NCBI RefSeq assembly: GCF_017094525.1
Contig: NZ_CP064788.1
Coordinates: 1,535,030 to 1,599,029 of the forward strand
Source: Halapricum desulfuricans
GTDB taxonomy: Archaea > Halobacteriota > Halobacteria > Halobacteriales > Haloarculaceae
Reading direction: 5' to 3'
DNA length: 64,000 nt
Of this stretch, positions 3,825 through 62,025 are shown piece by piece; the first letter of the stretch is position 1, and each line of letters opens with the position of its first letter. The notes under the pieces are model-generated. The model did not search any database, was not told where the DNA came from, and was given only the letters and a program-made list of their open reading frames with translations. The position numbers and the translations under genes were made by a program.

Positions 3825-3906
3825 ATCGTGGTTGCTGTAACGATTTACCGATGTGACCGCACGTCGTCGTGCGGTCGACCCGGAACAGGCGTACAGCAAC
3901 CACGAT
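3825..3906. repeat. 80-bp-class double palindrome, copy B (subfamily I)
   Basis: Perfect 15-bp outer arms ATCGTGGTTGCTGTA (3825-3839) and TACAGCAACCACGAT (3892-3906) enclose ACGATTTACC, an 8-bp inner stem GACCGCAC/GTGCGGTC with a 6-nt loop, and CGGAACAGGCG. The same internal blocks occur in the copies near 52.9, 6.3 and 8.4 kb, but with different stem sequences. It begins 15 nt past the stop codon of the histidine kinase gene and lies upstream of mutL. Confidence 0.9.
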
Positions 3907-5668: not shown

Positions 5669-6217
5669 ATGAGCTTCGAGCACTACCCCGACGAGGTCGA
5701 GATCGTCGAGACGAACTTCAAGACCGACCAGCAGGAAGACGCGGCCGAGACGATCGCCGACGAGTGGCCGGTCGATCTCGACCGGCTCGCCGAGGAAGGC
5801 CAGCACGTCAAGATGTTCTACAAGCAGGTCCTCGAGCAGTTTCTCGGCCCGGCGGAGGAGGACGCAACTTTCGCACAGCTCAAAGACGAGTACGGCAGCA
5901 TGGAGCAGTGGGCCGAGAACGGCGACGCCGAATCCGACGCCGAGGAGGTGGACGTCCCGGACGCCGACGACATCCTTGGCGTCGGCGAGAGCGACGACAC
6001 GAGCACCGGTATCGAGCCGGACGCCGACATGAGCGACTGGTCGACGGAAGCGTCGCCAGCGTCGGATAGCGAGGCTTCGTCGTCGAACGTGGACGCAGCG
6101 GCCGTCGAGACCGCCCCGGACGGCGTCGATGCGAAGCGCCGTGCGTGGTTCCGGGCCGGCTTCCGGGAAGGCGTCGAGTTCGCGCTCGAAAACCCCGACC
6201 TGTTTCGGGACGAATGA
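5669..6217 (+). CDS. Uncharacterised acidic protein
   Basis: 182 residues, starting MSFEHYPDEVEIVETNFKTD. Residues 1-75 look folded, with 'EDAAETIADEWPVDLDRLAE' and 'MFYKQVLEQFLGPAEEDATF'. Residues 80-145 are a very acidic Asp/Glu/Ser/Ala linker, probably disordered. The C-terminus has a short basic-aromatic helix 'KRRAWFRAGFREGVEFALE'. There is no signal peptide or membrane segment. I do not recognise a family and assign no function. It is divergent from the kinase-like gene and followed within 15 nt by a nested palindromic repeat. Confidence 0.8.
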   Translation: MSFEHYPDEVEIVETNFKTDQQEDAAETIADEWPVDLDRLAEEGQHVKMFYKQVLEQFLGPAEEDATFAQLKDEYGSMEQWAENGDAESDAEEVDVPDADDILGVGESDDTSTGIEPDADMSDWSTEASPASDSEASSSNVDAAAVETAPDGVDAKRRAWFRAGFREGVEFALENPDLFRDE

Positions 6218-6231
6218 TCACAACCGTTGTC

Positions 6232-6393
6232 ATACGGTCGGTTGTAATACTGGTGGCTATAACATTTCCAAATGATCTGGTACGACGGCGTGCCAGATAT
6301 CTTTACGAACTTATAGCCACCAGTATAAGTCTGTTCCAGATCGATCGCATCCGTTATGCGATCGTACCGGTAAATCGTTACAACCGACCGTAT
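6232..6393. repeat. 80-bp-class double palindrome, copy D (subfamily I), interrupted by copy E
   Basis: Outer arms ATACGGTCGGTTGTA (6232-6246) and TACAACCGACCGTAT (6379-6393) are identical to those of the copy at 52877-52956. Next to the right arm, read on the minus strand, are ACGATTTACC, the stem CGATCGCA/TGCGATCG and GGAACAGAC, again matching that copy. The left arm is separated from the rest by exactly one complete second element (6247-6326). Confidence 0.9.
6247..6326. repeat. 80-bp double palindrome, copy E (subfamily II), nested in copy D
   Basis: 80 bp with perfect 15-bp arms ATACTGGTGGCTATA (6247-6261) and TATAGCCACCAGTAT (6312-6326). The inner stem is ATCTGGTACG/CGTGCCAGAT with one T-G wobble and a 4-nt loop. 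The block ATATCTTTACGAACT before the right arm is identical in the copy at 33985-34064. Its position between the left arm and core of copy D indicates insertion. Confidence 0.9.
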
Positions 6394-6437
6394 CAAACCA
6401 GCAATGGGTTTTTGACCGCGACACGCCTGCAAAGTGT

Positions 6438-8414
6438 GTGGACGCTCTCGACCCGGACGACGACGACGTATTCGAGGCCCAGCGCGAGCGCGTCGAGCGG
6501 CCGATGGCCCGGTTGTTCCGCGAATACGGTCGTGAGAACAGCGGCTACTTCGGCGTCGGGCTGTTCGCCAGCATCGTCGCGCGAGTGCTGGATCTGCTCC
6601 CGCCGCTGTTTCTGGGCATCGCGATCGACGCGATCATCCGACAGGAGACGGCGTTCTCGCTACTCTTCGTCCCGGACGCCTGGATCCCGAGCGCGCCGCG
6701 CGACCAGCTGTGGCTCGCCGCCGCCATTGTCGCCGGAGCCTTTCTGTTCGGTGCGGCCTTTCACTGGGCGCGCAACTGGGGCTGGAACAACTTCGCCCAG
6801 CACATCCAGCACGACGTCCGGACCGACACCTACGACCAGATGCAGCGGCTGAACATGGACTTCTTCGCCGACAAGCAGACCGGCGAGATGATGTCCGTGC
6901 TCAGCAACGACGTCAACCGCCTCGAACGGTTTCTCAACGACGGGATGAACGCGGCGTTCCGGCTGATTGTGATGGTCGTGGGTATCGCCGTGATCCTGTT
7001 CTCGCTCAACTGGCAACTGGCGCTGATCGCGCTGGTCCCCGTGCCGCTGATCGCCTTCTTCACGAAGCGGTTCATCGAGACGATCCAGCCCAAGTACGCC
7101 GACGTGCGCTCCTCTGTCGGCGCGCTCAACTCCCGACTTGAGAACAATCTCGGCGGTATCCAGGTCATCAAGAGTTCCAACACCGAATCCTACGAGTCGG
7201 ACCGCGTCGACGACGTCTCGCGGGATTACTTCGACGCCAACTGGGACGCCATCGAGACGCGGATCAAGTTCTTCCCCGGGTTGCGGGTCATCTCGGGCAT
7301 CGGGTTCGTGCTCACCTTCGCCGTCGGCGGCTACTGGGCGCTGACCTACGAGACGACCGGGGCCGCGCCCTGGCTGTTCAGCGAACCGCTGACGACCGGG
7401 CAGTTCGTCGTCTTCATCACGCTGACCCAGCGGTTCGTCTGGCCGATGGCACAGTTCGGACAGATAATCAACATGTACCAGCGGGCCTACGCCTCCGCCG
7501 AGCGGATCTTCGGACTGATGGACACGCCCGCACGGATCGAGGAGGATCCCGACGCCGATCCGCTGGACGTGACCGACGGGCGCGTCGTCTACGACGAGGT
7601 CACCTTCGGCTACGATTACGAGCCCCCGGAGGGACCCCGCGACGACCCCGAGGGCGAGTCGATCGTCGAGGACATCTCCTTCGAAGTCGAGGGCGGCGAG
7701 ACCATCGCGCTCGTCGGTCCGACGGGCGCGGGCAAGTCGACGATTCTGAAACTCCTGTTGCGGATGTACGACGTCGACGCGGGTTCGATCACCGTCGACG
7801 GGACGGATCTGCGAGCGGTGACGATCCCCAGTCTTCGCCGGCAGATCGGCTACGTCAGCCAGGAGACCTTTCTGTTCTACGGGACCGTCGAAGAGAACAT
7901 CACCTACGGGACGTTCGGCGCGAGCCGCGAGGCGGTCGTCGAGGCCGCGAAGATGGCCGAGGCCCACCAGTTCATCGAGAACCTCCCCGACGGCTACGAG
8001 ACGAAGGTGGGCGAGCGCGGCGTGAAGCTCTCTGGCGGGCAGCGCCAGCGGATCGCCATCGCCCGCGCGATCCTCAAAGACCCCGAGATTCTGGTGCTCG
8101 ACGAGGCGACCAGCGACGTCGACACCGAGACGGAAATGCTCATCCAGAAGAGCCTCGACGAGCTGGCGGCCGACCGGACCACGTTCGCGATCGCACACCG
8201 CCTGTCGACGATCAAAGACGCCGATCAGATCGTCGTGGTCGAGGACGGACGGATCGTCGAGCGCGGCACTCACGACGACCTGCTCGCCGCGGACGGGCTC
8301 TACGCGAACCTCTGGGCGGTTCAGGCCGGCGAGATCGACGAACTCCCGCGGGAGTTCATCGAACGGGCGGCCAGACGTCGGTCACGCGTCGACGCCGAGG
8401 CAGGTGACGACTGA
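6438..8414 (+). CDS. ABC exporter, fused permease and ATPase
   Basis: 658 residues from a GTG at 6438. Residues 60-370 form the six-helix transmembrane domain of type IV/ABCB exporters, including 'DFFADKQTGEMMSVLSNDVN', a typical coupling-helix region. The nucleotide-binding domain has Walker A GPTGAGKST near residue 427, Q-loop 'GYVSQET', signature LSGGQ, Walker B 'LVLDEATSDVD' and switch His in 'IAHRLSTI'. The site reads DEATSDVDTE, where DEATSAVDTE is usual. It works as a dimer in the cytoplasmic membrane, exporting lipid, drug or peptide; the substrate cannot be read from sequence. It has no neighbouring transport genes and is flanked by palindromic repeats on both sides. Confidence 0.93.
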   Translation: MDALDPDDDDVFEAQRERVERPMARLFREYGRENSGYFGVGLFASIVARVLDLLPPLFLGIAIDAIIRQETAFSLLFVPDAWIPSAPRDQLWLAAAIVAGAFLFGAAFHWARNWGWNNFAQHIQHDVRTDTYDQMQRLNMDFFADKQTGEMMSVLSNDVNRLERFLNDGMNAAFRLIVMVVGIAVILFSLNWQLALIALVPVPLIAFFTKRFIETIQPKYADVRSSVGALNSRLENNLGGIQVIKSSNTESYESDRVDDVSRDYFDANWDAIETRIKFFPGLRVISGIGFVLTFAVGGYWALTYETTGAAPWLFSEPLTTGQFVVFITLTQRFVWPMAQFGQIINMYQRAYASAERIFGLMDTPARIEEDPDADPLDVTDGRVVYDEVTFGYDYEPPEGPRDDPEGESIVEDISFEVEGGETIALVGPTGAGKSTILKLLLRMYDVDAGSITVDGTDLRAVTIPSLRRQIGYVSQETFLFYGTVEENITYGTFGASREAVVEAAKMAEAHQFIENLPDGYETKVGERGVKLSGGQRQRIAIARAILKDPEILVLDEATSDVDTETEMLIQKSLDELAADRTTFAIAHRLSTIKDADQIVVVEDGRIVERGTHDDLLAADGLYANLWAVQAGEIDELPREFIERAARRRSRVDAEAGDD

Positions 8415-33984: not shown

Positions 33985-34064
33985 ATACTGCCGGCTGTAA
34001 CAAACTGAAGGAATTCGCCACCCCGGGGTGGCGAATATCTTTACGAACTTACAGCCGGCAGTAT
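33985..34064. repeat. 80-bp double palindrome, copy F (subfamily II)
   Basis: 80 bp with perfect 15-bp arms ATACTGCCGGCTGTA (33985-33999) and TACAGCCGGCAGTAT (34050-34064). The inner stem is a perfect 24-nt palindrome, half-site ATTCGCCACCCC (starting 34012). ATATCTTTACGAACT before the right arm is identical to copy E. It lies between the divergent lsm and UppS-like genes. Confidence 0.92.
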
Positions 34065-52876: not shown

Positions 52877-52956
52877 ATACGGTCGGTTGTAACGATTTAC
52901 CAGTACGATCGCATAGCGGTGCGATCGATCCGGAACAGACGTACAACCGACCGTAT
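52877..52956. repeat. 80-bp double palindrome, copy A (subfamily I)
   Basis: 80 bp with perfect 15-bp arms ATACGGTCGGTTGTA (52877-52891) and TACAACCGACCGTAT (52942-52956), then ACGATTTACC, inner stem CGATCGCA/TGCGATCG with loop TAGCGG, and CCGGAACAGACG. It is the most intact subfamily I copy, between the convergent SBDS and FUN14 genes. Confidence 0.93.
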
Positions 52957-61945: not shown

Positions 61946-62025
61946 ATACTGGTGGCGATACCCTTTCGAAATGATCCGGTACGACGGTGTGCCGGATATC
62001 TGTACGAACGTATAGCCATCAGTAT
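61946..62025. repeat. 80-bp double palindrome, copy G (subfamily II)
   Basis: 80 bp with arms ATACTGGTGGCGATA (61946-61960) and TATAGCCATCAGTAT (62011-62025), 13 of 15 pairing. The internal AATGATCCGGTACGACGG, the stem and GATATCTGTACGAACG match copy E closely with compensating changes in the stem. It lies 37 nt after the adenosyltransferase stop. Confidence 0.9.

Follow-up and report, generated by a model that had tools for sequence, protein, structure and literature searches.

A short mobile element, E, has inserted into a related element, D, in the genome of Halapricum desulfuricans (2.89 Mb, a single contig), and each of the two lies between exact 3 bp duplications of its own target. Both belong to a set of dispersed repeats that look like an ordinary in kind, but previously undescribed, group of transposase-dependent hitch-hikers, or MITEs. 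The best explanation of their movement, to which we assign a probability of around 0.85, is mobilisation in trans by a TNA-duplicating DDE transposase, as in the IS1031 group of IS5. The nesting was noted during an earlier reading of the window, the 64,000 nt stretch of chromosome analysed here; that observation was correct and informative, with the insertion of a mobile unit of approximately 80 bp now supported and the targeting of relatives unproven. The locus provides a clean, dated case of a ~78 bp archaeal MITE moving, with exact ends, a target rule and empty sites; in the literature searched, comparably detailed descriptions from haloarchaea were previously limited to the short mobile repeats (SMRs) of Haloquadratum.

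Structure of the nested composite

The composite is found between a gene encoding 182 residues and an ABC exporter gene, with the layout TCA-[D: TACGGTCGGTTG-TAA-[E, 78 bp]-TAA-GTCTG...CCGACCGTA]-TCA. Element D, 79 bp in total, is split by E into two segments, 6233-6247 and 6329-6392, both on the forward strand. The first is the left terminal inverted repeat, TACGGTCGGTTGTAA, the final three bases of which (6245-6247) are the TAA target of E and hence the left copy of its duplication; the second starts with GTCTGTTCC and contains the core hairpin and the right terminal repeat, ending in TTACAACCGACCGTA. Between these lie E itself, a family II element on the forward strand that extends from TACTGGTGGCTATAA to TTATAGCCACCAGTA (6248-6325) and has a hairpin inside, and the right copy of TAA (6326-6328). 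The target duplication of D consists of TCA at 6230-6232, read directly and represented by just one GCA where the site is empty in the congener G001, and TCA at 6393-6395. The outer arms are 16 bp long, fully complementary (100%) and spaced by 130 nt, and the arms of E are 38 nt long with 74% complementarity; the 162 nt composite has a predicted fold of -80.1 kcal/mol (z = -10.4), which none of 200 shuffled sequences equalled.

E is confirmed to be nested within D, its insertion point being the inner edge of the left repeat of D (GGTTG-TAA-GTCTG). Excision of 81 bp, comprising E and one TAA, leaves a 79 bp D that is identical at 79 of 79 positions to five dispersed, uninterrupted copies; the earlier note had foreseen this restoration, but with 80 bp removed and 80-82 bp remaining. 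It had also recognised that D matches another copy in the window on the opposite strand, and indeed an uninterrupted family D element with TCA on either side is present on the reverse strand at 52878-52955, although at 78 bp, and slightly diverged, this is a poorer reference for D than the identical copies. The location previously given for E was right and its ends (6247-6326, 80 bp) were each one base too far out, as the outer A and T of 'ATAC...GTAT' are part of the duplicated target, outside the element proper. The impression that no target duplication exceeded 1-2 bp was mistaken, since TAA/TAA around E and TCA/TCA around D are exact over 3 bp. These duplications were concealed because TNA beside TAC...GTA mimics a longer palindrome. 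That palindromic ends can mask a 3 bp duplication bears on earlier statements that such duplications are absent from short haloarchaeal repeats.

Families, copy numbers and target duplications

Four related families, D, II, III and IV, are present in the genome, with at least 109 copies catalogued. Genome searches detected more than 25 copies resembling D, more than 20 resembling family II and about 40 resembling family III, as well as approximately 30 of family IV, which has TAGTGACCGTTGTA ends; 24 family II copies are in the catalogue. The elements are mostly 77-80 bp in size, with no room for coding, and have terminal repeats of 14-15 bp in every family. The window additionally contains a family III element (33986-34063) and a family II element (61947-62024), each of 78 bp and flanked by TGA/TGA, as is an 80 bp element of the same class on the reverse strand (3826-3905), which has TCGTGGTTGCTGTA arms and a D/IV-type core.

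In the first catalogue, exact 3 bp flanking repeats were found around 73 of the 80 D, II and III copies (~91%), in 72 cases being TNA, with only ~1.3 of the 80 expected to have such repeats by chance (P ~4e-123). The extended catalogue covers all four families in 110 rows, one of which is a spurious overlap in locus L003; repeats are found in 92 of these rows (TGA in 45, TCA in 39, TAA in five, TTA in two and TGC in one), such that 91 of the 92 are TNA. The duplication is detectable in just 18 of 27 family IV copies, which are older and more diverged than those of the other families. Both the C preceding the TSA target and the G-T-C following it are weak preferences, with C before the target at 36 and G after it at 50 of 77 independent sites, and no preference was found in the orientation of elements relative to the target.

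Elements are also found adjacent to one another. Seven tandem pairs (at L002, L019, L022, L024, L052, L078 and L088) are spaced by exactly 3 bp and have one TNA duplication in common; in these pairs, mostly of unlike families, one element landed in the duplication of the other. At L013 (1505-1582), a family II element occupies a TAA resembling the stop codon of a gene (GGCTAA; ACTAG in G001), with the stop codon retained through the duplication; in many cases, TSA targets could be TGA stop codons.

These MITEs double as landing sites for unrelated IS. An IS with CATCCGTCTTTAGCTAAGA ends, encoding a 458 aa PF01609 transposase, is found inside a family III element at L099 (source genome ~2844550-2845260; 1005-2501 of the locus), with a 10 bp target duplication, CTTTACGAAC. 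At L334 (source genome ~235552; 1349-2545 of the locus), an IS630-type element of ~1.1 kb, present in the genome in four or more copies, interrupts a family IV element at its centre, and the outer ends of the latter are adjoined by TGA. In the relative G104 (L297, 1042-3156), a ~2 kb stretch bounded by GAGGGTGTCATAGAA... and containing PF01609 transposase fragments splits the outer arm of a D-like element.

Empty sites in a congener

The genes flanking the composite are contiguous and in the same order in G001, from which the composite is wholly absent: the gap there reads CAACTATTG-GCA-AACCAGC, as against CAACCGTTG-TCA-[D+E]-TCA-AACCAGC in the window. This syntenic gap had been proposed as a check on the direct insertion of an ~80 bp mobile unit into a relative, and with the site empty in the congener and D restored exactly, that claim is upheld. 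Further precise empty sites, at which the flanks are joined and align around a single TNA, correspond to an array of a D element and a composite (2696141-2696384), the II and D pair at L022 and a single D at L005; the locus of the third composite described below and L013 are likewise empty, with less clean alignments. The simplest reading is that the insertions postdate the split from G001, precise excision in G001 at all of these sites being less likely.

Probable mobilisation in trans

According to the favoured explanation, a DDE transposase would act in trans on the terminal repeats, making a 3 bp staggered cut at TNA sites, which are for the most part T[C/G]A and weakly favour G-T-C at one side, and the joining of the element would leave the TNA duplicated. 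D, which was in place before E, entered a TCA between two genes; a family II element later inserted into the TAA at the inner edge of its left repeat, and no fewer than two further D copies received inserts at this TAA in independent events. Published work gives insertion at TNA with 3 bp repeats as the signature of IS1031-group elements (PMC12016507), hence an IS1031-type or similar transposase seems the probable agent; as the parent transposase was not found, the mobiliser is one that we infer.

The search for a parent was targeted rather than exhaustive. Matching ends with TNA repeats were absent from the PF01609 (20 hits) and PF13358 (IS630-type) loci of the genome itself and from 30 PF01609 loci of six high-copy relatives. 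No autonomous parent was evident in the loci scanned for inverted ends that lie far apart and are bordered by a TNA repeat, nor in 20 regions around single ends in relatives and the plasmid matches, and a pattern scan of viral contigs returned 72 single matches and no paired ones. None of the loci searched had an IS5-type DDE transposase between matching ends, the results being just MITEs, MITEs split by unrelated IS, or chance motifs. One such motif, in a relative, lay inside a PQQ-repeat-like gene, whilst ends 1.35 kb apart in G041, resembling those of an IS, are actually two MITE-like elements with ordinary genes between them. An orphan state is not unusual, as MITEs are reported to have moved in Haloquadratum although its genome had no intact transposase to match them (PMC3119063), and the exact ends and TNA footprint make the missing transposase searchable. 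Counting against the favoured explanation are the strong, conserved inner hairpin, which is unneeded under simple MITE theory, and the lower share of family IV copies with a duplication.

The mobiliser may instead be a TNA-duplicating transposase of a non-IS1031 type, from a DDE family outside PF01609 and PF13358, and the lack of a matching parent from either family in the loci searched makes this a possibility to be taken seriously. We nevertheless consider it the less probable identity, given the correspondence of target and repeat length to the IS1031 signature, and that an IS1031-type parent may have been lost or be plasmid-borne.

A common core with re-coded arms

Elements with the same layout (TNA, an arm of ~14 bp, bulge, hairpin, bulge, arm, TNA) are also found in other genera and on plasmids, including those of Haloarcula, Natrinema, Halapricum and Natronorubrum, amongst others, and of the 146 genomes in the GTDB family, 34 contain the arm motif. 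When GTDB genomes were scanned for the right-hand junction of the nested pair, ten matches came up, all in unrelated bacteria and therefore taken as chance. D, family IV and the TAGTGGTTG type have a common core and different outer arms, and elements at five loci in relatives (L121, L122, L142, L195 and L271) combine a D-type core with TAGTGATTACTGTA, TAGTGACCGTTGTA and TAGTGGTTGCTGTA arms, altered on both sides together. Across 24 sequences, two-sided changes were found at 11 pairs, compared to a mean of 7.0 in shuffles, and 95.7% of cells were paired, compared to 87.8% when shuffled; seven arm pairs have two-sided changes. Such changes in the arms fit selection for matching ends, and are by themselves no proof of a function for folded RNA or DNA.

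The re-coding of arms around a conserved core is the less ordinary aspect of these elements. A speculative reading, which we think rather unlikely, is that one transposase after another has carried the core of ~52 bp (GTCTGTTCCGG-hairpin-CCGGTAAATCG), making the elements 'arm-switching' hitch-hikers with a core kept for its own sake. The SMRs may then be of the same kind, with a TNA duplication that was overlooked for the same reason as here.

Repeated insertion at one site

The composite layout is found at three loci in the source genome (1541261, which is that in the window, 2696223 and 16787), each with an E-type insert at the same TAA of D. The inserts are two distinct family II variants, 88% identical to one another, and one family III element with many exact matches among the dispersed copies of its family; the II and III inserts have 68-69% identity. 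The host D sequences are 95-97% identical to each other: whereas that of the first composite matches the five intact copies mentioned above, that of the third is identical, again over 79 of 79 positions, to a different set of five, and that of the second has 96% identity to its nearest copy. As both inserts and hosts differ, these are three separate insertion events. At L059 (422-519; source genome 58421-58518), the left arm of D and TAA precede a whole family III element, with TCA and unrelated sequence immediately after it. The remainder of D is missing, apparently through a deletion beginning at the inserted element, and this is likely to be a fourth case of insertion, surviving as a remnant.

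A target profile (TSA followed by G-T-C) trained without the nested copies ranked TAAGTC first among the eight oriented TNA sites in D, although ~10% of the TNA sites in the window score as high, making it a good site rather than a unique one. Since this is the best site in D by the profile, special homing to relatives is unnecessary, and sequence preference would probably suffice for the re-use of the site. Where the earlier note had anticipated a consistent target dinucleotide in other nested copies, the constant feature is the trinucleotide TNA with a weak GTC, and its suggestion that the elements can target their relatives holds as an event, but not as specific targeting.

It could still be argued that transposition of families II and III is directed to D-like elements beyond the sequence motif, much as Haloquadratum SMR-A elements are to PATEs (PMC3119063), given three insertions and one likely remnant, all at one TAA, in ~28 D copies, as well as the seven tandem pairs. 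This is doubtful, as the site tops an ordinary motif ranking, the majority of copies are outside other elements, and elements persist chiefly between genes: by rough estimate, ~0.2 insertions into D would be expected over a uniform genome but ~1.7 if only intergenic insertions survive, in which case the probability of four or more is ~0.09. On this neutral estimate, homing to relatives is unestablished.

The strong fold, together with compensatory changes in arms and hairpin, might suggest that structured single strands or RNA are the form in which the elements spread, by a hairpin-based (REP/IS200-like) or retro-type route, with the TNA repeats incidental. This is very improbable: IS200/IS605 movement leaves no duplication (PMC3119063), whereas exact direct repeats of TNA, and empty sites with one TNA, are almost universal in this set, and Rfam had no match to the window at gathering thresholds, or to 6150-6450 at E<=1. 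Least credible of all is that the 162 bp composite forms one larger element in itself or was copied whole. The layout does recur, as the earlier note had considered, its three occurrences having TCA flanks, one internal site in common and co-oriented inserts, and it folds as one structure. However, the inserts come from two families and two II variants, two of the three differing hosts match different intact copies perfectly, and composites are far rarer than intact D copies.

Relationship to known mobile elements

We file the elements as MITEs: they are short without a transposase gene, have terminal inverted repeats and a constant 3 bp duplication, and are dispersed with empty sites. The one other defining feature, a matched autonomous parent, had no counterpart in the loci searched, which weighs on the identity of the enzyme rather than on this filing. 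Prokaryotic MITEs are short, non-coding and multicopy, with terminal inverted repeats, target duplications and a stable stem-loop (PMC10969869). The Halapricum elements have the same layout features, but differ in being GC-rich and towards the lower limit in size, in comprising four families with a common layout, two of them with a common core and different arms, and in that no parent was found.

Amongst larger elements, ISLrh of the IS1031 group (PMC12016507) likewise has a TNA target and a 3 bp direct repeat, but is 857 bp long, encodes a transposase and has ends, GAACCTGTCTAGTATCT, unlike TACGGTCGGTTGTAA. The PHIS/NuwaII transposons (PMC4482050), which are eukaryotic and autonomous, use the target C|TNA|G, an analogy of target only. 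PATE and IS605-type elements lack the terminal inverted repeats and target duplications that are both present in the Halapricum elements.

The nearest published haloarchaeal analogue is the SMR group. SMR-A and SMR-B of Haloquadratum walsbyi are ~80-110 bp long, with inverted terminal repeats, tens of copies and no known transposase; they sit inside the palindromes of other mobile elements and are reported without target duplications (PMC3119063). The Halapricum elements are similarly haloarchaeal and tiny, with palindromic ends, and are found within other elements. However, they have a clear 3 bp TNA duplication, the element invaded is a sister MITE rather than a PATE or IS605 element, and, unlike SMR-A, which inserts into near-terminal palindromes of PATE/IS605 elements, most copies occupy ordinary TNA sites that do not lie in other members of this class. 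As SMRs have been described without target duplications, the Halapricum elements were not filed as SMRs.
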